Assembly: GCF_014642835.1 (NCBI RefSeq)
Contig: NZ_BMJA01000001.1
Span: forward strand, 186,001 to 250,000
Length of the DNA stretch: 64,000 nucleotides
From: Dyella nitratireducens
GTDB taxonomy: Bacteria > Pseudomonadota > Gammaproteobacteria > Xanthomonadales > Rhodanobacteraceae
Direction of reading: 5' to 3'
Positions 1,153-22,304 of this stretch are shown piece by piece. The notes below the pieces were generated by a model. It saw only the letters and a program-made list of their open reading frames with translations. It was not told the DNA's origin and searched no databases. Position 1 is the stretch's first letter. Each line of letters begins with the position of its first letter. A program made the translations under genes and the position numbers.

Positions 1153-2445
1153 TCAGGCGCCGACCGGGCGCATTACTTCGTCGAAGCTCAGGTTCTGCAC
1201 GGTGGTGTTGGCGTGTTCGGCCACCCACTCGGCCACCTGATCTTCCATAACGCGATTCTGCAGCCCAGACATCAACTGGGGATCGCCGTTGTAGAGTTCA
1301 ATGACCTTCTCCGGCTCCTCATAAGTCGAGGCGATGGCAGCAAGCTGCTCGGCCAGGCGCATACGATCAAGCTTGAGCTCGCTCTTGCGCGCAATCTCGC
1401 CCATCAGGAGACCGGCGATGACACGCAGACGCGCAGCCGGTACGGCAGCGTCGATCAACTGCTGCGGGGGTTGCTGACCGCGCGGCACACTGGCAGCCGC
1501 CAGGTTGCGTGCTTCGCCCTGCACCATCAAGTTGGGCACATCAAGATCGCTGTGCGACTGCGCCAGTTTCTCTGCCACCTGGGACTTCAAGCGGCCCATC
1601 AGGGCGGCCTTGAGTTCACGCTCCAGATTCGCCCGTACTTCCTTGCGGAAGTGCTCCATGTCGCCGTCGTTGATGCCAAACAACGTGATGAATTCGGCGT
1701 CAACTTCAGGCAGCTTGGGTTCCTGTACCTTCACGATATTGAAGTTCACCTTGGCCGTCTTGCCGGCAAGCTGCTCGTTGCGGAAGTCGGCCGGGAACTC
1801 GATATCGCTTTCGAACGTCTCGCCCGCCTTGCGACCCGTGAGTGCACCATCCAGCGCCTTGAACAAGGTGCCCGAGCCCAGCACGCTGCCGGCGCGCTCC
1901 TGACCTTCAACTGGGAAGCGGTAGTCGCCAGCCACGGCGTCGTATTCGAACATCACGAAATCGCCTTCCGCAGACGCGCGCTCGACTTCTTCGAAGCTGC
2001 GACGCTGCTGGCGCAGGGTTTCGATCATCTTCTCGACGTCTGCGTCGGTGACTTCCGCCATGGGACGGCTGACTTCCAGCGCAGCCACATCGATTTCGGG
2101 GAATTCCGGCATGACCTCGAAGGTGGCCGTGTAGGCGATCTCGCCGTTTTCCGGCCGGCCGGTGGTATCGATGGCGGGGTTGGCGACGGGGCGCAGGTTT
2201 TCCTTCTCGAACGCCTCGCGCAACGTGCTGCTGATGAGATCGGAGAGCACCTCACCACGCACCTGCGCGCCGAAGCGCTGTTGGATTACGTTGGTGGGCA
2301 CCTTGCCCGGGCGGAAGCCTTTCAGCCGTACCGTGCGGCTCATCTCGGCGATGCGCTCGCTGACCTGCGACTCAAAGCGCTCTGCCGGAAATTTGACCGT
2401 GAGCTTACGCTCGAGCTTGCCGACGTTTTCAACTGAAAACTGCAT
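1153..2445 (-). CDS. tig: Trigger factor, ribosome-associated chaperone and prolyl isomerase
   Basis: Binds ribosomal protein L23 at the exit tunnel and shields nascent chains. The 430-residue product begins MQFSVENVGK and carries the ribosome-docking signature GFRPGKVP at residues 43-50. An FKBP-like isomerase domain follows around residues 150-240, then the helical chaperone body. The open frame continues 22 codons upstream, but the ATG at 2445 is preceded by AGGAG at good spacing and matches the family N-terminus, so I chose it. It lies upstream of clpP-clpX on the same strand, as in most proteobacteria. Confidence 0.97.
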   Translation of the reverse strand: MQFSVENVGKLERKLTVKFPAERFESQVSERIAEMSRTVRLKGFRPGKVPTNVIQQRFGAQVRGEVLSDLISSTLREAFEKENLRPVANPAIDTTGRPENGEIAYTATFEVMPEFPEIDVAALEVSRPMAEVTDADVEKMIETLRQQRRSFEEVERASAEGDFVMFEYDAVAGDYRFPVEGQERAGSVLGSGTLFKALDGALTGRKAGETFESDIEFPADFRNEQLAGKTAKVNFNIVKVQEPKLPEVDAEFITLFGINDGDMEHFRKEVRANLERELKAALMGRLKSQVAEKLAQSHSDLDVPNLMVQGEARNLAAASVPRGQQPPQQLIDAAVPAARLRVIAGLLMGEIARKSELKLDRMRLAEQLAAIASTYEEPEKVIELYNGDPQLMSGLQNRVMEDQVAEWVAEHANTTVQNLSFDEVMRPVGA

Positions 2446-2529
2446 GACGTCTCCTGGGGTGTCCTGTAATGGCCCGTACCGGCGCCGAGGCGGCCACGCC
2501 GCCCTCAACAATCGGGCTCAAGGTTCGGG

Positions 2530-2614
2530 TGGTGCGAAAGAAGGGACTCGAACCCTTACGGGGTTACCCGCTGGAACCTAAATCCAGTGCGTCTACCAAT
2601 TCCGCCACTTTCGC
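2530..2614 (-). tRNA. tRNA-Leu (anticodon UAG)
   Basis: Complete cloverleaf of 85 nt on the minus strand with a long variable arm typical of class II tRNAs. The acceptor stem GCGAAAG pairs with its complement, the anticodon loop reads TTTAGGT (anticodon TAG, reads CUA), the T-arm contains GTTCGAGTC, and the 3' CCA is encoded (2530-2532). It reads away from the lanthipeptide genes. Confidence 0.96.
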
Positions 2615-3055
2615 ATTGTTCGCCGGATTACAAGCTGCGGATTCTCAAAGACTTTCTTGGGTCAACCCGCGACCTTTGAATGCCTGCCCTGCCGCGACCT
2701 GGGCGATGGCAACCTTGCGCCAAAGAGATTCATTTTAAGGTTCTGTGACGGCCCAGCACAAGCAGCGCGCCGGCTGCAATGAACAGTTTGCGCGCCGCAA
2801 CAAAGTCCTGACTTTTTGACCGTCATTCCAAATACCCGCCACCAGCAATTGACACCCGCATTGCCCGGGGCGCAAGGTGGCCGCGGTTTGTCCAGGGTCG
2901 CCCGCTTGCAGGGGATCACCGCCCCCAGGCAAACCTGCGTCCATGTGTGTGTCAACGTTACTGAACCGGCTCGGATTCGGAGCCGTGGCGACATGTGGCT
3001 TTTCGAATCCCGCACCTTCGCTGTTCTAACTCTTGCTTCGCAAAAGGAGATAGTT
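2615..3055. other. Intergenic region upstream of the lanthipeptide precursor
   Basis: About 440 bp with no gene I can support. Open frames here have no ribosome-binding site or family resemblance; one is only an upstream extension of the precursor frame. It should contain the promoter of tRNA-Leu (minus) and that of the precursor gene (plus), but I see no convincing -35/-10 pair for either. A small hairpin (CGGCTC/GAGCCG, about 2968-2986) lies in the presumed precursor leader. The stretch ends with AAGGAGA just before the precursor ATG. Confidence 0.5.
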
Positions 3056-3259
3056 ATGCAACAGATTGATGACGTCGTTTCGGGTTGGCTGAGTGGTGAT
3101 GAAGGCCTGGACAATCCCGCAGGCCCGCTTTACATCGAAGGTGCCGCCGCTACTGAGGCAGCACTGACTGATCCAGGTATCGGCAAGGTGCTCATCTCGG
3201 GTGCTACGACGTGCTCGTTCAGCGGCAAGATTTGCGCAAGCAGCTGCGCTTGCTGTTGA
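3056..3259 (+). CDS. Class II lanthipeptide precursor, mersacidin-like leader (LanA)
   Basis: Encodes a 67-residue peptide starting MQQIDDVVSGWLSGDEG. AAGGAGA five bases before the ATG fixes this start, although the frame is open further upstream. The leader is acidic, contains Trp11 and the motif NPAG (residues 20-23), and ends in ISGA (residues 47-50). The leaders of mersacidin and haloduracin alpha have the same W...NPAG...GA layout, with cleavage after GA. The predicted core (51-67) is TTCSFSGKICASSCACC, with six Ser/Thr (51, 52, 54, 56, 62, 63) and five Cys (53, 60, 64, 66, 67), enough for several (methyl)lanthionine rings. LanM begins 115 bp downstream. The lanthipeptide call is strong from context; ring pattern, cleavage site and activity are inference. 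The core lacks the CTLTxEC segment of mersacidin. Confidence 0.85.
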   Translation: MQQIDDVVSGWLSGDEGLDNPAGPLYIEGAAATEAALTDPGIGKVLISGATTCSFSGKICASSCACC

Positions 3260-3267
3260 TGTAACCC

Positions 3268-3317
3268 TGCCAACGCGCAGCGTCATTTTTATTCGTGCCA
3301 TGCGCTGCGCGTTGGCA
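3268..3317 (+). promoter_or_regulatory. Long perfect hairpin between precursor and LanM genes (attenuator or RNA-stabilising stem)
   Basis: The arms TGCCAACGCGCAGCG (3268-3282) and CGCTGCGCGTTGGCA (3303-3317) are perfectly complementary over 15 bp with a 20-nt loop. The stem begins nine bases after the precursor stop. No strong U-run follows immediately (a short TTTT occurs about 10 bases later), so it could be a leaky terminator or a 3' stabiliser that keeps the peptide:enzyme ratio high. Such stems are common after lanA genes. Confidence 0.75.
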
Positions 3318-3373
3318 ATGTATCGGTTTTCCAGTGCGTGCGGTTTTCTACAGCCACAGCAAGGAACCTGCCT

Positions 3374-6217
3374 GTGTCGATCGCCACCGAAACGAATGCC
3401 ACTGACTCCTTCGCCGCCATCATCTCGGGTTTTACTGCGCCTGTCCGTGCCATGTTTTCGGCTCGGCTTGCCGAACTTGCTCCGGCATTGTTACCCGATG
3501 AAATCGCACTCATCCGCCACAGCGCCGAGGAAGCACTCAACGCCAACGCCAGTTTCAAACTCAGCCGCGTTTTATTGCTGGAATTGCACGCTGCCAAACG
3601 CGCAGGTGAATTGACTGCTCACGACGATGCAGGCCGCTTCGCGCAGTTCGTGGAACAGGCACAGCAACCGGCTTTTCTTGAACATCTCAATCATCGTTAT
3701 TCCAAGCTGCAAGAACGCCTCTTACGGGCTTTGAATGCGCAACGCAGCGCAATCGAAGCACTGACCACACGATTCGCAGCCGATCGCAGCACACTCGCAC
3801 AACTGCCAGGTCATCCGCATGGATCACTCATTGCGCTAAGCCTCGGCCAAGGTGATTTGCATGGCGGTGGCCAGTCCGTGGCGAAACTGTCACTGGAAGA
3901 TGGTGAGGTGATTTACAAGCCCCGTTCGCTGCGTATCGATCACGTGCTGGAAACATTTCTGGCACGCGTCTTTGGCAACGGTCCATACCGTATACGCGTG
4001 CCGGAGATTATCGATTGCGGTGATTACGGCTGGGCCGAATTCGTCAGTCATCGCTATTGCAGCGGCGACTCGGAACTATGTGTGTTCTACCGCAACCTTG
4101 GCGCTTGGCTGGCGATATTGCGCGTGCTTGGTGGCACCGATATTCATCACGAAAATCTGATTGCCTGCGGCCCCGTACCGGTAGTGATCGATGTTGAAAG
4201 CTTGTTCTCGATGATGCCAAAGGCCGCTCCATCAACCTATGGCGATGCATTCGAAGTGGCCGCCGAACTGATCCGCAATTCAGTACTACGTACTGGCATC
4301 GTGCCGTATCGTGCACCGGCACTAGGTTTCTTCGGCGTCGACATGTCTGGAGCCGGCGCCCTGTCCGGCGAGCAGCCACAAGTGCACGTGCCAGTGATTG
4401 CGCAAGAGGGAACCACGGATGCGCGTCTCGACATTGTCAATGCCGATTTGCTCCCCGCTCAGAATCACCCAAGCCGCGAACCGGACGTTTCCAAGTACTG
4501 GAACCATCTCAGCGACGGCTTCCTTGATATAACGGCTCGATTGCGACGCCTGGACGCAAAAGGTGAACTCGCGCCGCTGCTTGCTGATTTCGAGGGTTGC
4601 CAGGCACGCGATATTCGCCGCCCCACTCAGGCTTATGTGGAGATCGGGCGCATGCTATGGCATCCGGCCTCGTTGTACGACGAACCCAAGGCCATCGAAC
4701 GCGCCCGCGATCTGTTGACGCGCAACGCTGCGGTAGTACCGCAGGCACCTGCAAGCGCTGCAGAAATAAACGTTGAGATCGACGACTTGCGTTACGGCGA
4801 CATACCCATTTTCGCAGCGCCACTGACGCGCACGCGTATTGATGAAGCACTCGCCGACTGGCGAGCCATGCGATTGGAGCTGGAAGAACTCACCATTCGT
4901 AGCGCGCTTGTCGCCACTCATCTGAACCTTTCCGAAGACCAACCACAGGACGAGCGAAACGCACGCCGTTACGCCGCGCGCCATCCGCATGCGGAGCACC
5001 TCGATCAACGCCGACGCAAACTGGCTGCGGAAGCGGTAGAGCGGCTGCTACGGCTTTCCGTACACGGCAAGGATCACTCGGTCACCTGGATCACACCAGA
5101 GATAAATCGAGCCGGCTGGCAAGTGCAACCTTTGGCGACAGATCTGTATTTTGGCCTGACCGGAGTAATCGTCGCGCTGGCCGGCTATCTGCACGAAACC
5201 GCTGCAGGCTGCGCCGATGCGGTGCCCGGGGTCGAAGCAACACTGGCAGGTGCATTGCAGACCCTGCGTGCCATGGAGGAGGAAGAAAAACAGGAATTGT
5301 CCGGTGGGTTCACTGGCTACGGTGCGCAAATCTGGACATGGCTGAGTTTGCATAGCTTGCAAAAAGAACGAGCGTGCCTGGACCGCGCCGTCCATTTTGC
5401 CGAAGCACTGGAGCGCCTGGGCTTCGAGGATGACAAAGCGTTCGACATCCTTGGCGGTGCATCAGGCGCTATTGTGCCGCTACTTGGCCTGGCGGAAGCC
5501 ACCCAGCATCAGCGCTGGCTCGATCTGGCAGCACGCGCGGCAAATCATCTCGAAGCTACGGCGACCATCGAAGGCGACACCGCATACTGGCCAACCATGC
5601 GTACCCCCGATGCGATCGGTGGATTCGCGCACGGCTCAATGGGCATCGCCTGGTCGCTGGCACGGCTTGTGTTGGCAGAAGCAGGCAACCATGCAGACCG
5701 TACGCGTTGGAGCGCATTGGCCGAACGTGGCTTCCAACTCCAGCAGAAGCAATACGACGAAACTGTCGGCAACTGGTTCATCACGCAACAAGGCATACGC
5801 CGCGAAAGCTTCCATAACTGGTGCTACGGTAGTGTCGGTATCGGCATGGCCGCCGGTGATCTGTACGCTCGCAGCGGCGATTTGAATCATCTGCACACAT
5901 TGCGCCGCGCCGTCGCCGCTGCGCGGGATAAATGGGGCTCCAGCCACACGCTCTGCCACGGCGATTTCTCGCTCGGGGAATGGCTGGTACGCGCGGCGCA
6001 ATGGGATCCCGAAGGCTGTGCACTGGACGCCGCGCACCCTGTCGCATGCGTCGTGTCGGCCATCGAAGAACATGGCGGCATCGTTGGCGGCATGGCGCGC
6101 GATGCTTTTACGCCCGGCCTTATGACAGGCTTGGCGGGAGCTATTTACAGCCTCAACCGGATGCATCCGGATTGCACGCTGCCCTCCCCGCTCCTGCTTG
6201 AGACCAAGGCACCCTGA
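3374..6217 (+). CDS. lanM: LanM, class II lanthipeptide synthetase (bifunctional dehydratase/cyclase)
   Basis: A 947-residue cytosolic enzyme that phosphorylates and eliminates Ser/Thr of the precursor core, then adds Cys thiols to form thioether rings. The dehydratase half (about 85-500) shows Lys182 in KPRSLRID, and Asp256, His258, Asn261 and Asp273. The spacing of the last four (2, 3 and 12 residues) is the same as that of the catalytic Asp347/His349/Asn352/Asp364 set of CylM. The LanC-like half (about 580-945) has the zinc ligands Cys817 (NWCYG) and Cys861-His862 (TLCHGD). The GTG at 3374 has AAGGA eight bases upstream; an earlier in-frame GTG at 3338 lacks a site. The part before Lys182 is roughly 90 residues shorter than in CylM. 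No lanT, protease or immunity gene adjoins it. Confidence 0.95.
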   Translation: MSIATETNATDSFAAIISGFTAPVRAMFSARLAELAPALLPDEIALIRHSAEEALNANASFKLSRVLLLELHAAKRAGELTAHDDAGRFAQFVEQAQQPAFLEHLNHRYSKLQERLLRALNAQRSAIEALTTRFAADRSTLAQLPGHPHGSLIALSLGQGDLHGGGQSVAKLSLEDGEVIYKPRSLRIDHVLETFLARVFGNGPYRIRVPEIIDCGDYGWAEFVSHRYCSGDSELCVFYRNLGAWLAILRVLGGTDIHHENLIACGPVPVVIDVESLFSMMPKAAPSTYGDAFEVAAELIRNSVLRTGIVPYRAPALGFFGVDMSGAGALSGEQPQVHVPVIAQEGTTDARLDIVNADLLPAQNHPSREPDVSKYWNHLSDGFLDITARLRRLDAKGELAPLLADFEGCQARDIRRPTQAYVEIGRMLWHPASLYDEPKAIERARDLLTRNAAVVPQAPASAAEINVEIDDLRYGDIPIFAAPLTRTRIDEALADWRAMRLELEELTIRSALVATHLNLSEDQPQDERNARRYAARHPHAEHLDQRRRKLAAEAVERLLRLSVHGKDHSVTWITPEINRAGWQVQPLATDLYFGLTGVIVALAGYLHETAAGCADAVPGVEATLAGALQTLRAMEEEEKQELSGGFTGYGAQIWTWLSLHSLQKERACLDRAVHFAEALERLGFEDDKAFDILGGASGAIVPLLGLAEATQHQRWLDLAARAANHLEATATIEGDTAYWPTMRTPDAIGGFAHGSMGIAWSLARLVLAEAGNHADRTRWSALAERGFQLQQKQYDETVGNWFITQQGIRRESFHNWCYGSVGIGMAAGDLYARSGDLNHLHTLRRAVAAARDKWGSSHTLCHGDFSLGEWLVRAAQWDPEGCALDAAHPVACVVSAIEEHGGIVGGMARDAFTPGLMTGLAGAIYSLNRMHPDCTLPSPLLLETKAP

Positions 6218-6242
6218 AGGCCAAGCAGTGCTCTTGGCCTTC
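6216..6242. terminator. Hairpin between convergent lanM and GH31 genes
   Basis: GAAGGCCAAG (6216-6225) and CTTGGCCTTC (6233-6242) form a perfect 10-bp stem with a 7-nt loop, starting inside the lanM stop codon. The following plus-strand sequence is pyrimidine-rich (TCTCC) rather than a clean T-run, so terminator strength is uncertain. Confidence 0.55.
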
Positions 6243-6247
6243 TCTCC

Positions 6248-8590
6248 TTACTTGCCAATCACCTTGGCAAGTCCAGGAACCTTTTTGTCGAAGGATTCAT
6301 CACCACCGGTCGCACTCAAAACGCCTGACGCGTCATTCCAATGCAATTGGGCTGTGGTGCCCTTACCCGCTTGATAACCGTACGACGTACCGTCGTCGTT
6401 ATAGAGAGCAAAGTCGTCATCCCTGCCCGGGTAGACACGTATCTCGGTAATGGATTGTTCTGATGCAGTCGACTGGATTTCTGAACCCAGCGGCACGATC
6501 GAACCCGCGCGAACAAAGACAGGAATCTGATCGATGGGCGCGTCCACTTTAACCCAGCGTCCGCCCGTCAGCTTTTCGTTGGTCCAGAAGTTGTACCAGT
6601 CGCTCCCAGCAGGCAGATAGACGTCTTTTTCTGTCTGACCTTGCTCAGTGACGGGCGCCACCAAAAAGGCCGGACCGAACATGTATTGCGTGCCAATGTT
6701 GGCGACATTGGGATCGTTCGGGAAATCCATCCACAACGGGCGCATGAAAGGCGCACCCGTGTCATAGGTTTTCTTGGCCTGACTGTAGATGTAGGGAATC
6801 AATCGGTAGCGAAGCTCGTCGTACTTCGCCATGATCGCCTCGGCCTGATGACCAAAGGCCCAGATTTCCGTATGTTTCCTGTCGCCATGCAAGCGCAAGG
6901 TAGGCAGAAACGTGCCGTATTCAAACCAGCGCGTGAGTAGCTCCGGATAATCGTTGTTCTGACCCACCACATCGCGCGCATCCGACGGATCGAGTAACGG
7001 CGGCCTGGTGGCGTTGGTCGTTTGTGGCAAGTACTGCCAACCGCCGATGTCATTGCCCCAATAGGCAATGCCCGAGGCAGTCATGTTGAGACCTGTAGGA
7101 ATTTGGCGCTGCAAGGCCTCCCACGTTGGATCGATATCCGAAGACCAGAACAGTGCGCCCGTACGCTGCGATCCCAGATAGGCAGCACGCGAAAGAATCA
7201 GCACACGCTTGTTAGGCTTCCATGCACGCATGCCCTGCGCAACGCCTTCCACATGCAACAGCGGAAAGACGTTGTGATAGCGATCGCCAGAACCGATCGA
7301 ATAGAAGTATCCATCCGGCACCAAATCCGGCTCTGTTTCGTCGAGCCACGGATAATCGAAACCATGCGACAAGATGTTGTCGCGCGCATGCTCCCAGTAC
7401 CACTTGCGTGCAGCCGGATTGGTCGAGTCAATTAGCGCGCCTGCACGATCCGAACGAAATGGCAGACCATCAACCGTCTTGCCATCCTTGTCCTTCAGGA
7501 AATAACCCTTGGCATCGAGCTCTTTGAAATAACGACTGGACCGTTCAAAACGCGGCCAGATCGATATGATCGACTGCATGCCCATGTCGTGAAGCTGCTT
7601 GTTCATGCCATCAGGATCAGGAAACTCGGCAGGATTGATATCCATCTGGCCCATGTGCGTCCAGTAGAACCAATCGATGACCATGATATCGAGCGGGTAG
7701 TGCTTTTCCCGATACGTATGCGCGACACGCAATACTTCTGCCTGGCTGTCATAGCGCGCCTTCGACTGAATCAGGCCGAAGGCCGCTTTGGGCGGAATCG
7801 GCGTCTTGCCGGTCACCCGCGCATAAGCCGAATAGATCTCTTCCGGTGTGTCGCCCGTGATCACAAAGAAACTGACGCGCTCGCCCACCTTCGATTGGAA
7901 GCTAGTGCGACCGCGAATGGCTGCCACAAAACGCGTATCGGATGGGTTATCCCAGATGATGCCGTAACCTTTGGACGACACCATGAAGGGCACGCAGACC
8001 GTCTCGCCGCTTGGCGCGTCGTACCAATGCTGGCAATCCATGACGCGGCCGCGCAGATCAAGCGGCCCGAGGCTGTCCTGGTTCTGGCCCATGCCGTAAT
8101 AGTGTTCGTCGGCCGGCGCTGAGAACGTGGCACCCACTTGATAGGTGGCTTCGCCAGCCACTTCATGTGGCGACATGTTCCAATCGATCATGTTGACGAT
8201 TGTTTCGCCCTTGGCATTCTTCACTTGCAAGCGAACCGGCGCCAGATTCGGTGCAAAGTACCGCTCCATCACTCCTGGCGTATGCGGCGGCGGTGCAGGG
8301 TCGACGTGCAAGGTCAAAACCTTGGACGCAAAGGTGTCACCGTCTTGACCACTAGTTTCGTGGAAAGCCGAATTGTCAGCATGGTCGGCGAGAATGCCGT
8401 AACCCGGCGCCTTCAGCGCCTCCGATTTGTCGGCGGCAATCGTTACGTGAATGACGTTCGGGCCATAAGCCTCCACACTTACCCACGCACCGTGGCGATC
8501 AAGCGTGGTTATCGGCGTGGCATTGGCGACCGTAATCGCCCCTGCAAAGGACAAGGCCAGACTCAGCAATACCATGTTGGATCTACGCAC
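6248..8590 (-). CDS. Secreted glycoside hydrolase family 31 (alpha-glucosidase/alpha-xylosidase type)
   Basis: A 780-residue retaining alpha-glycosidase exported by a signal peptide (residues 1-24, cleavage likely after ANA). An N-terminal beta-sandwich precedes the (beta/alpha)8 barrel. The barrel carries the nucleophile Asp417 in WLDETEPD and a likely acid/base Asp485 in FWSSD. A C-terminal beta domain contains YPGRDDDFALYNDDGTSYGY. The WLDxTEPD form of the nucleophile motif is common among alpha-xylosidase and sugar-transferring GH31 enzymes, but the substrate cannot be set from sequence alone. GTG at 8590 follows AAGGGG; an ATG five codons later is the alternative. It converges with lanM and stands alone, so a link to the lanthipeptide is not indicated. 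Confidence 0.9.
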   Translation of the reverse strand: MRRSNMVLLSLALSFAGAITVANATPITTLDRHGAWVSVEAYGPNVIHVTIAADKSEALKAPGYGILADHADNSAFHETSGQDGDTFASKVLTLHVDPAPPPHTPGVMERYFAPNLAPVRLQVKNAKGETIVNMIDWNMSPHEVAGEATYQVGATFSAPADEHYYGMGQNQDSLGPLDLRGRVMDCQHWYDAPSGETVCVPFMVSSKGYGIIWDNPSDTRFVAAIRGRTSFQSKVGERVSFFVITGDTPEEIYSAYARVTGKTPIPPKAAFGLIQSKARYDSQAEVLRVAHTYREKHYPLDIMVIDWFYWTHMGQMDINPAEFPDPDGMNKQLHDMGMQSIISIWPRFERSSRYFKELDAKGYFLKDKDGKTVDGLPFRSDRAGALIDSTNPAARKWYWEHARDNILSHGFDYPWLDETEPDLVPDGYFYSIGSGDRYHNVFPLLHVEGVAQGMRAWKPNKRVLILSRAAYLGSQRTGALFWSSDIDPTWEALQRQIPTGLNMTASGIAYWGNDIGGWQYLPQTTNATRPPLLDPSDARDVVGQNNDYPELLTRWFEYGTFLPTLRLHGDRKHTEIWAFGHQAEAIMAKYDELRYRLIPYIYSQAKKTYDTGAPFMRPLWMDFPNDPNVANIGTQYMFGPAFLVAPVTEQGQTEKDVYLPAGSDWYNFWTNEKLTGGRWVKVDAPIDQIPVFVRAGSIVPLGSEIQSTASEQSITEIRVYPGRDDDFALYNDDGTSYGYQAGKGTTAQLHWNDASGVLSATGGDESFDKKVPGLAKVIGK

Positions 8591-8865
8591 AACATCCCCT
8601 TACCGCTAACACTCAGACTTTCCGCGTCGCTAGATGCGCGCGGCCGAATATCGGGGTATTTATCATATAAATCGAGCTTGCCCGTCGCCGTACCAGGTCA
8701 AGCGATTAAATTCGCTATTCGGGTTGGGTGATTAAGTAAAAGCGGCGCATGAAGGCAGAAGGCACTTGGCCGACAGATGGCCCGTGGCAACCAGCGAGTC
8801 GGTAGCGACCTTTACACCCCTGGCATTGCCCGCCATGTGGTCAGCCAGCGCTGGGATACAGGCAA
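8591..8865. other. Intergenic region upstream of the GH31 gene
   Basis: No supported gene. On the side nearest the GH31 gene there is an AT-rich palindrome, ATTTAT-CAT-ATAAAT (8658-8672), in otherwise GC-rich DNA. It could be an operator or promoter core (TATGAT on the minus strand) for the glycosidase. The remainder up to the tRNA terminator shows nothing recognisable. Confidence 0.4.
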
Positions 8866-8900
8866 AGAAAAAGGCACTCAGGGAAAACCCTGAGTGCCTT
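8866..8900 (-). terminator. Intrinsic terminator of the five-tRNA unit
   Basis: Perfect 13-bp stem (8871-8883 with 8888-8900) and a 4-nt loop. On the minus strand it is followed by TTTTTC and further T residues. It starts 8 bases past the CCA end of tRNA-Lys and closes the tRNA operon. Confidence 0.9.
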
Positions 8901-8907
8901 GTTTAGC

Positions 8908-8983
<76 letters not shown>

Positions 8984-8998
8984 AGAACTGCTTGAAAT

Positions 8999-9076
8999 TG
9001 GGGTGGACGATGGGACTCGAACCCACGACAACCGGAATCACAATCCGGTACTCTAACCAACTGAGCTACGCCCACC
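8999..9076 (-). tRNA. tRNA-His (anticodon GUG)
   Basis: Minus-strand cloverleaf with the extra 5' G (position -1) opposite a C discriminator, the hallmark of tRNA-His. The anticodon loop is TTGTGAT and CCA is encoded at 8999-9001. Confidence 0.96.
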
Positions 9077-9089
9077 GTAACCACGAAGC

Positions 9090-9166
9090 TGGCGCGCCCG
9101 ACAGGAATCGAACCTGCAACCGTCGGCTTAGAAGGCCGATGCTCTATCCGGTTGAGCTACAGGCGC
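9090..9166 (-). tRNA. tRNA-Arg (anticodon UCU)
   Basis: A 77-nt cloverleaf beginning GCGCCTGTAGCTCAAC. The anticodon loop CTTCTAA gives anticodon TCT (reads AGA), and CCA is encoded at 9090-9092. It is the third tRNA of the cluster. Confidence 0.95.
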
Positions 9167-9190
9167 TTTGACTAAAAGCAGAACACCTGC

Positions 9191-9267
9191 TGGTCGGGGC
9201 AGAGGGATTCGAACCCACGACATCCAGCTCCCAAAGCTGGCGCTCTACCAGGCTGAGCTATACCCCG
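9191..9267 (-). tRNA. tRNA-Pro (anticodon UGG)
   Basis: A 77-nt cloverleaf beginning CGGGGTATAGCTCAGC. The anticodon loop TTTGGGA gives anticodon TGG, and CCA is encoded at 9191-9193. The 176 bp between this and the next tRNA upstream hold no gene. Confidence 0.95.
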
Positions 9268-9443
9268 TTTTTCGAAACCCGGTCGGATTTCGCGACCTGA
9301 GCTCTGAAATGCTACGGGTGACACTCTGGCCCGTCAATCCGTATCGAAGCACGCCGGACTTCTTCGTCCGGTTTCATTGCAAACGGTATTCTGCCCGCAA
9401 TGCAGGCATGACTTGAACCAACATCATGCCTGTTAAATAAATA

Positions 9444-9520
9444 TGGCGCGCCCGGAGAGATTCGAACTCCCGACCACCAAGTTCGTAGCCTGGTACTCTA
9501 TCCAACTGAGCTACGGGCGC
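9444..9520 (-). tRNA. tRNA-Arg (anticodon ACG, read as ICG)
   Basis: A 77-nt cloverleaf beginning GCGCCCGTAGCTCAGT. The anticodon loop CTACGAA gives anticodon ACG, and CCA is encoded at 9444-9446. It is the first gene of the five-tRNA unit, about 60 nt downstream of a good promoter. Confidence 0.95.
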
Positions 9521-21075: not shown

Positions 21076-21450
21076 ATGGCCATCACCTGGAACGACAGCG
21101 TCCCGATCTATCGCCAGCTACGCGAACGCGTCGTGGCGATGATCCTGGACGGCGCCTTGAACGAGGGCGACCCGCTGCCGTCAGTACGCCAGGTGGCAGC
21201 GGATTTTCAGATCAATCCGCTCACGGTTTCCAAGGCGTACCAGGAACTGGTCGACGACCAACTTGTAGAGAAAAGGAGGGGGCTGGGCATGTTCGTCACC
21301 GATGGAGCGCGCGAGGCGCTACTCAAATCCGAACGCGAGCGCTTTTTGCGCGAAGAATGGCCGGCGCTGTACGCACGCTTGCAGCGCCTCGGGCTGGACC
21401 TTAAAACCCTGATGCGCGAAGCGCCGAAGGATGCGGAGAACCCGTCATGA
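21076..21450 (+). CDS. GntR-family transcriptional regulator, YtrA subfamily
   Basis: A 124-residue repressor with a winged helix (about 10-75: VPIYRQLRERVVAMILDGAL, then SVRQVAADFQINPLTVSKAYQEL). A short C-terminal helical tail takes the place of a large ligand domain, which is the mark of the YtrA group. AAGGA eight bases before the ATG at 21076 sets the start. It overlaps the next gene by ATGA, so regulator and transporter are coupled. The palindrome over the operon promoter is the probable target. In Bacillus and Xanthomonas such regulators respond to cell-envelope-active compounds. Confidence 0.93.
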   Translation: MAITWNDSVPIYRQLRERVVAMILDGALNEGDPLPSVRQVAADFQINPLTVSKAYQELVDDQLVEKRRGLGMFVTDGAREALLKSERERFLREEWPALYARLQRLGLDLKTLMREAPKDAENPS

Positions 21451-22304
21451 ACGCGGTCGTTACCGCCAGTGGTTTGAGCAAGCACTACAAGAACGCGCTT
21501 GCGTTGGACAACGTGAGCTTCCAGATTCCCGCCGGCCGCATCGTGGGTCTGATCGGACCCAACGGTGCGGGCAAGACGACCGCGCTGAAAGCCATCCTGG
21601 GTCTGACCGATTTCCAGGGCCAGCTCAACGTGCTGGGATTGGACCCGCGCAGTCAGCGCGACAAGCTGATGGAAGAAGTGTGCTTTATCGCTGACGTCGC
21701 CGTACTTCCGCGCTGGATCCGCGTGCGTGAGGCAATCGACTTCGTCGCCAACATCCATCCGCGCTTCAATCGCGCGAAATGCGAAGCCTTTCTGGCGCGC
21801 ACCAAGCTCACGCCCGATCAACGCGTCAAGCAGATGTCCAAAGGCATGATCGTGCAGTTGCATCTGGCCCTGGTGATGGCGATCGACGCCAAGCTGCTGG
21901 TGCTGGATGAACCCACACTCGGCCTGGACATCCTCTATCGCAAGCAGTTCTACCAGAACCTGCTGGAAGACTACTTCGACGAAAACAAGACGATCATCGT
22001 CACCACCCACCAGGTCGAGGAGATCGAACACATCCTCACCGACCTGATGTTCATCCGCGACGGCAGGATCGTGCTCAACACCGATATGGAAGCCATGGGG
22101 GAACGTTTCGCCGAGGTCATGGTGAGCGCGGACATGGCCGCCACCGCGCGTCAGCTCAAACCGCTGGACGAGCGCCAGATATTCGGCAAGAGCATTTTCC
22201 TGTTCGACGGCGTCGATCAGACGCAGCTCCGGGCGCTGGGCGAAATCCGCCGGCCTTCGGTCAGCGACCTGTTCGTCGCCACCATGAAGGGGACCTACGC
22301 ATGA
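21447..22304 (+). CDS. ABC transporter ATP-binding protein (YtrB-like)
   Basis: A 285-residue ATPase with Walker A GPNGAGKT near residues 37-44, Walker B LLVLDEPTLGLD near 149-160 and the switch His in TTHQVEE near 191. The ABC signature is degenerate, MSKGM in place of LSGGQ, as is usual in this subfamily of small-molecule/peptide exporters. It overlaps the regulator gene upstream and the permease downstream by ATGA at both ends. It presumably powers export by the adjacent membrane protein. Confidence 0.92.
   Translation: MNAVVTASGLSKHYKNALALDNVSFQIPAGRIVGLIGPNGAGKTTALKAILGLTDFQGQLNVLGLDPRSQRDKLMEEVCFIADVAVLPRWIRVREAIDFVANIHPRFNRAKCEAFLARTKLTPDQRVKQMSKGMIVQLHLALVMAIDAKLLVLDEPTLGLDILYRKQFYQNLLEDYFDENKTIIVTTHQVEEIEHILTDLMFIRDGRIVLNTDMEAMGERFAEVMVSADMAATARQLKPLDERQIFGKSIFLFDGVDQTQLRALGEIRRPSVSDLFVATMKGTYA

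Follow-up and report, generated by a model that had tools for sequence, protein, structure and literature searches.

A predicted two-gene DUF6229 lanthipeptide cassette between tRNA genes of Dyella nitratireducens, with no linked transporter or protease

How the lanthipeptides of a widespread family leave the cell and shed their leaders with no accompanying gene for a transporter or protease is a general question, and it is raised by a locus of Dyella nitratireducens (GCF_014642835.1; genome code G000). The stretch analysed, hereafter the window, covers 64,000 nt of contig NZ_BMJA01000001.1 (186,001-250,000, forward strand). Between a tRNA-Leu gene and a convergent glycosidase gene of the GH31 family it carries only a precursor gene (lanA), a hairpin and a class II synthetase gene (lanM); as a preliminary description of this DNA had stated, there were no transporter, protease or immunity genes between them. 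We read the locus as a self-contained two-gene DUF6229 lanthipeptide cassette that would depend on unlinked or housekeeping functions for maturation and that would have entered, with the GH31 gene, as an insertion between tRNA genes. The probability of this reading is put at roughly 0.8.

The lanA gene (3056..3259, + strand) follows a Shine-Dalgarno-like AAGGAG (3044..3049, + strand) and encodes a product of 67 aa, MQQIDDVVSGWLSGDEGLDNPAGPLYIEGAAATEAALTDPGIGKVLISGATTCSFSGKICASSCACC. The product is assigned to DUF6229, the family to which rhodanocin leaders belong, as it passes the Pfam model PF19740 with 60.5 bits (cut-off of 25; E 1.5e-16). This was its sole Pfam match, and no NCBIfam match was found at E 1. 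The probable core, TTCSFSGKICASSCACC (residues 51-67; 3206..3256, + strand), contains six Ser/Thr and five Cys, its boundary being placed from a block conserved in relatives. The lanM gene (3374..6217, + strand) has a GTG start and encodes 947 aa, with a score of 518 bits against TIGR03897 (cut-off of 304) and with a DUF4135 dehydratase and a LANC_like cyclase domain in Pfam. Its relatives in the Protein Data Bank at E 1e-10 were LicM2 and CylM, the LicM2 alignment spanning 64-943. Residues K182, D256, H258, N261, D273, E275, T307, C817, C861 and H862 were invariant across 11 relatives, in roles that we take to be catalytic and zinc-site functions. The ratio of nonsynonymous to synonymous change (dN/dS) was 0.11 against a Rudaea-like copy, with dS near saturation. 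The gene is intact. A precursor with a Ser/Thr/Cys core thus adjoins lanM, the arrangement by which a class II locus is recognised, and the product is predicted to bear thioether rings.

The order was represented by 299 genomes, the window's among them, and DUF6229 was present in 28. Wherever the DUF6229 open reading frame (ORF) was intact, in 40 loci, LanM adjoined the precursor; these loci were drawn from the DUF6229 genomes and from LanM matches in congeners; the remaining loci of that round were a decayed copy (L096), a distant LanM without DUF6229 (L097) and a locus with neither (L098). Among named loci, which were the best 80 of 156 relatives, a DUF6229 ORF lay upstream of lanM in 76; it was missing in four (L159-L162) since these begin at the lanM start, cut by contig ends. 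In 59 of the 80, lanM was flanked by more than 9 kb in both directions, and genes in the relatives' flanks were called by codon scoring. The preliminary description regarded such a peptide as unusual for Xanthomonadales. The counts above do not bear this out, nor do a known Dyella product (PMC9576775) and the DUF6229 assignment of 21 among the 27 unique class II precursors of Lysobacter (2024 preprint PMC11451712). A DUF6229-lanM pair was also observed in a record titled Bacillus subtilis SK7B5 contig00066 (L192), with a Stenotrophomonas-like precursor and a LanM 55% identical to that of the window; this is probably a contaminant contig.

None of the 80 named loci contained an ATP-binding cassette (ABC) exporter with a C39 peptidase domain (C39-ABC) above 300 bits. 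The strongest match to the C39-ABC queries was L144:272-2206 (223 bits, 644 aa), approximately 7.5 kb before the precursor, while the ABC ATPases of L176, L188 and L189 scored below 90 bits. A cyclic-peptide-type ABC exporter was found in 8 of the 80 loci, and these are all eight loci with an RPG core. Among 31 related Lysobacterales loci no neighbour family was shared by more than four, and the shared ones lie 5.6-10 kb off, centre to centre; among 33 Corallococcus and actinobacterial loci, none within 6 kb exceeded four either. Pfam naming covered 15 neighbour proteins around related loci. Of eight downstream genes, one encoded an M13 peptidase (L123), and the rest were metabolic, glycosyltransferase, NUDIX or DUF2076 genes or had no match; five further neighbours gave alpha/beta hydrolases, a sulfotransferase, an acyl-CoA dehydrogenase or nothing, and a gene pair in L052 was also scanned. 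In the window itself, ORFs of at least 100 aa searched with eight transporter and C39 queries at E 1e-5 gave a sole weak ABC-type match at 21405-22304 (best E 6e-13). No LanT with a C39 peptidase was present in the window, and the nearest C39 genes were on other contigs.

A LanM tree of 41 rows shows where linked exporters do occur. Twenty-five rows that share the leader type of the window were set apart (100/100) from 15 rhodanocin-leader rows and the distant L097. Ten of the 25 form a subclade with the core CSxCTASRPGxCC, in which an exporter lies beside the pair in nine, and also in L057 once re-read as L146. The exporter of L043, the one member scanned against NCBIfam, reached 283 bits with TIGR01194, the model for cyclic peptide exporters (cut-off of 286). 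The other 15 rows are the window's group (14 joined at 99/97, the fifteenth at 87/55), and no C39 or cyclic-peptide-type exporter was present in their fetched flanks. Among the rhodanocin-type loci, an MsbA-like ABC gene directly follows lanM at L049:5161-6975 and L061:12863-14878. Relatives with the locus flanked by transport genes, which would point to a deletion in the window, therefore exist in the RPG subclade, L049 and L061; in the window's own subclade none recurs. A local deletion is disfavoured because the relatives share the bare pair, which we interpret as the rule of the family. The missing exporter and protease look like a real question, and a broken cluster fits less well, as the bare form is usual in relatives. 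The exporter-linked RPG stretches observed in all, some of them duplicates, were L042-L044, L047, L048, L067-L070, L140, L144, L146, L147, L149, L151, L153 and L170.

The core sets the window apart within this family. Across 79 and 44 DUF6229 ORFs, the five-Cys pattern of 17 residues was confined to the window, the Rudaea-like L052/L156 (one record) and a relic in the congener G248. The rhodanocin spacing T-x-C-x2-C-T-x-S-x3-T-x4-C, among the precursors read, was present in L051 and in one of the two precursors of L050, and not in the window. The junction ahead of the core was compared in 18 TT..C..CxCC precursors (15 distinct by pattern, plus the window, L156 and L126, identified by eye). Gly was at -2 in 12, G-[GAS] preceded the core in 10 and Lys, Arg or Gln was at -1 in five; a G-G/A/S was missing in the congeners' precursors L129 and L150. 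Cleavage after GA, as first proposed, thus does not appear to be a conserved feature. Two tandem precursors with nearly identical cores were observed ahead of one lanM at L091/L150:6939-7402 (the L150 record is Dyella acidiphila). Elsewhere in the window's own genome, at C7:30952, lies another DUF6229-lanM pair, whose core differs from the window's; in its flanks the nearest match to the ABC queries was a fragment 9.7 kb off.

The hairpin between the genes (3268..3317, + strand; RNA fold) is also shared with relatives. The 114-nt intergenic region folds with a dG of -47.4 and a z of -3.97. A stem run of at least 10 was found after the stop codon of the precursor in 64 of the 76 loci, after lanM in 36 of 75 and after other genes in 146 of 386, and in 64 of 228 random stretches. 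A terminator scan, which requires a T run, did not list this hairpin. It is a recurrent part of the cassette and most likely acts as an attenuator or stabiliser.

The position of the pair was compared in the 14 of 16 genus genomes in which trigger factor was located. The tRNA-Leu (TAG) gene on the left (2530..2614, - strand; ARAGORN) and the tRNA-Lys, His, Arg, Pro, Arg cluster on the right (8908..9520, - strand; tRNA scan) are separated by 6293 nt in the window and adjoin each other, at 219-340 nt, in 10 of the 14. In the longest matches, the left-hand homology to these empty sites stops at 2763-2778, and homology restarts on the right at approximately 8862, which defines an insertion of ~6.1 kb relative to most congeners (2779..8861) containing lanA, lanM and the convergent gene with Pfam GH31 domains (6248..8590, - strand). 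The right border is a terminator-like hairpin (8868..8903, - strand; inverted repeat I5) that ends the tRNA unit and has a similar counterpart in the empty sites. G248 carries the same insertion (C61; L096:6222-7169), in which the precursor frame is disrupted and only the 3' end of lanM survives; identity to the window is 99% for ClpP, 93% for Tig and 91% for GH31. Insertion and decay are thus observed from synteny. The spacer between tRNA-Leu and tRNA-Lys is an insertion spot in its own right, with three different inserts in 4 of the 14 genomes (window 2615-8907; L230:10551-12246; L231:3730-6429). The inserts of G300 and G060 are alike just in ~150 nt by the tRNA-Leu gene and showed no similarity to the window's insert at E 1e-5. 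No convincing repeats marked the integration ends; a repeat pair spanning both borders (D4) was rejected as tRNA-to-tRNA similarity, and an ORF in the L231 insert that was integrase-like by eye had no Pfam match and is not claimed as a remnant.

Acquisition from outside is likely. The nearest relative of the window's LanM is the Rudaea-like copy, from another genus (74% identity, joined at 100/100), while those of the congeners G299 and G301 are placed elsewhere (59-60%). Transfer, which had been suggested from a low guanine-plus-cytosine (GC) content, is supported by this tree together with the synteny, as is the loss in G248, and base composition, which bears out the suggestion only in part, adds little. 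The GC content at third codon positions was 0.61 in lanM and 0.57 in lanA, below the 0.66-0.78 of the other protein genes compared; the total GC of lanM (58.9%) was near that of the window (60.2%), and the GH31 neighbour was lower (55.9%).

In the proposed sequence of events, LanM would bind the leader, dehydrate Ser/Thr of the C-terminal core and close thioether rings on up to five Cys within its 17 residues, as expected from the protein families. The hairpin 3' of lanA would probably hold precursor mRNA above lanM mRNA. The window's subclade most likely never carried a linked LanT or LanP, and leader removal and release would fall to non-dedicated cell proteases and exporters or to an unlinked factor, which is the weakest step. 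The preliminary description already placed export and leader removal in trans or with genes elsewhere; that they take place in trans or not at all agrees with the gene content of the locus. The pair and the GH31 gene would have come in as an insertion separating two tRNA transcription units, in an ancestor common to the window's genome and G248, and the pair has since decayed in G248.

Several results weigh against this account. The product, its expression and its dehydration are predictions from sequence, and no sigma-70-like promoter was found in 2400-6400, where 1.5 were expected from shuffles. Because all eight RPG-core loci have a linked exporter, the family is able to use one. As Pfam named 15 neighbour proteins, non-ABC exporters are excluded only as a recurrent feature. 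Isolated neighbours of interest also occur close to the window's subclade: in a Lysobacter locus, lanM is followed at 56 nt by a same-strand M13 metallopeptidase gene (L123:12894-14999), a possible local leader protease; in L171 an MsbA-like ABC gene precedes the precursor by 4.8 kb; and the window's closest relative (L052/L156) has a YbbA/YbbP-like ABC pair, below curated cut-offs, 2.4 kb after lanM. Finally, C39-ABC genes at E 1e-25 were present in 16 of the 28 DUF6229 genomes and in 67 of the 271 others (Fisher p 0.0006, uncorrected for kinship or genome size), which leaves room for a C39 exporter in trans.

Such an exporter may serve in the window's own genome. The genome-wide search gave five C39 matches, of which only C4:359418 was strong (E <1e-25); it has C39, ABC_membrane and ABC_tran domains and, by eye, the Cys motif. 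It could cleave after the leader's GA (ISGA|TTC, with Ile at -4) and export the product, and within the genus a strong C39-ABC was present in all seven genomes that have a DUF6229-LanM pair and in none of the seven in which no such pair was found (G060, G174, G240 and G297 pairless by DUF6229 search; G302, G304 and G305 only by a missing LanM match). However, the seven exporters from six congeners are 32-43% identical to C4:359418 (36% for the Rudaea-like one), so that no single conserved partner emerges; Gly-x does not appear to be conserved at the junction, and LahT150 failed to cleave the rhodanocin precursor (PMC9576775). C4:359418 also has an HlyD-family gene after it and an S41 peptidase gene before it, and a peptide gene whose leader looks by eye to be of the double-glycine type, with no family match, is found ~4 kb upstream (L071:14054-14389). 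Moreover, 12 of the 28 DUF6229 genomes had no strong C39-ABC, including G130, G293, G023 and G040 of the window's group. The last three also lacked a cyclic-peptide-type gene at E 1e-40, and G130 has a 48% identical copy elsewhere in its genome. Because genomes with neither exist, neither exporter type is a general answer, and we consider cleavage and export by C4:359418 unlikely, if still credible. A cyclic-peptide-type exporter acting in trans was rejected for the window's genome, where none was found at E 1e-40. The stretch L071:5092-14389 (G000:C4), which carries the C39-ABC exporter, the HlyD-family, S41 peptidase and peptide genes at a GC of 52.7%, looks like a separate bacteriocin-type island.

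A modified peptide with no dedicated export, acting inside the producer or freed by lysis with its leader on or off, would suit a pair beside which exporter, protease and immunity families do not recur in three bacterial phyla, the RPG-core loci excepted. The linked exporter of that subclade speaks against it, as does the weak inhibition of Klebsiella by AspN-trimmed rhodanocin (126 uM; PMC9576775), which suggests an outside target, and this explanation seems rather improbable. More remote still is a remnant of a larger cluster from which LanT and LanP were deleted. The exporter in 8 of 8 named RPG-core loci and the proof from G248 that the locus can decay would allow it, but the decayed insertion in G248 retains the lanA-lanM-GH31 order and the flanks of the window's 15-row group argue against it. 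The mersacidin-type lantibiotic first proposed, for which a class II LanM and a leader ending in GA could speak, is contradicted by a precursor that matches DUF6229 only, by a core lacking the CTxTxEC motif and by the missing LanT, and is scarcely tenable.

Read as a self-contained pair with unlinked maturation, the locus may have a wider bearing. It is a tentative possibility that DUF6229-lanM pairs are autonomous cassettes that move among Gammaproteobacteria, myxobacteria and actinomycetes with no linked exporter, protease or immunity gene, their products being matured by housekeeping functions or having no dedicated export. With the window, a young family that has a weak anti-Klebsiella precedent gains a five-Cys core, and the contrast with the RPG-core subclade makes the export question testable in Dyella and Luteibacter.

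The kind of system is already known, as DUF6229 lanthipeptides are reported in PMC9576775 and PMC11451712; missing proteases as such are known as well, since protease-free class III clusters are noted in PMC7268733. No description of the exporter-less two-gene rule or of the window's core was found in the literature covered, which comprised titles and abstract openings, few subscription journals and no supplements. Compared with mersacidin and lichenicidin, the window shares class II LanM chemistry and a leader ending in GA, but its leader and core are different, and those clusters include a C39 LanT and immunity genes. The RPG-core loci of Luteibacter and Dyella (L140, L144, L146, L147, L149, L151, L153, L170) have a homologous leader and a LanM 51-53% identical to the window's, and differ in their core and in a linked ABC exporter, which has no C39 domain. 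The Lysobacter DUF6229 precursors share their leader family with the window; the authors of that work sort lanthipeptide precursors into six families in a network (PMC11451712). The rhodanocin of Dyella sp. 333MFSha (LanII), a strain since placed among proposed Luteibacter mycovicinus strains (PMC11165876), was produced, its rings were solved (Thr6-Cys11, Cys8-Ser14 and Thr12-Cys23, plus Dhb18) and the group was named in 2022, the authors stating that DUF6229 comprises two or more groups that differ in their rings (PMC9576775). It and the window have in common the DUF6229 leader, a class II LanM, the family Rhodanobacteraceae and a leader removal that is unsolved, AspN having been used for rhodanocin; they differ in that the window's core spaces its five Cys in another way and that the window's LanM falls into the opposite main part of the tree.

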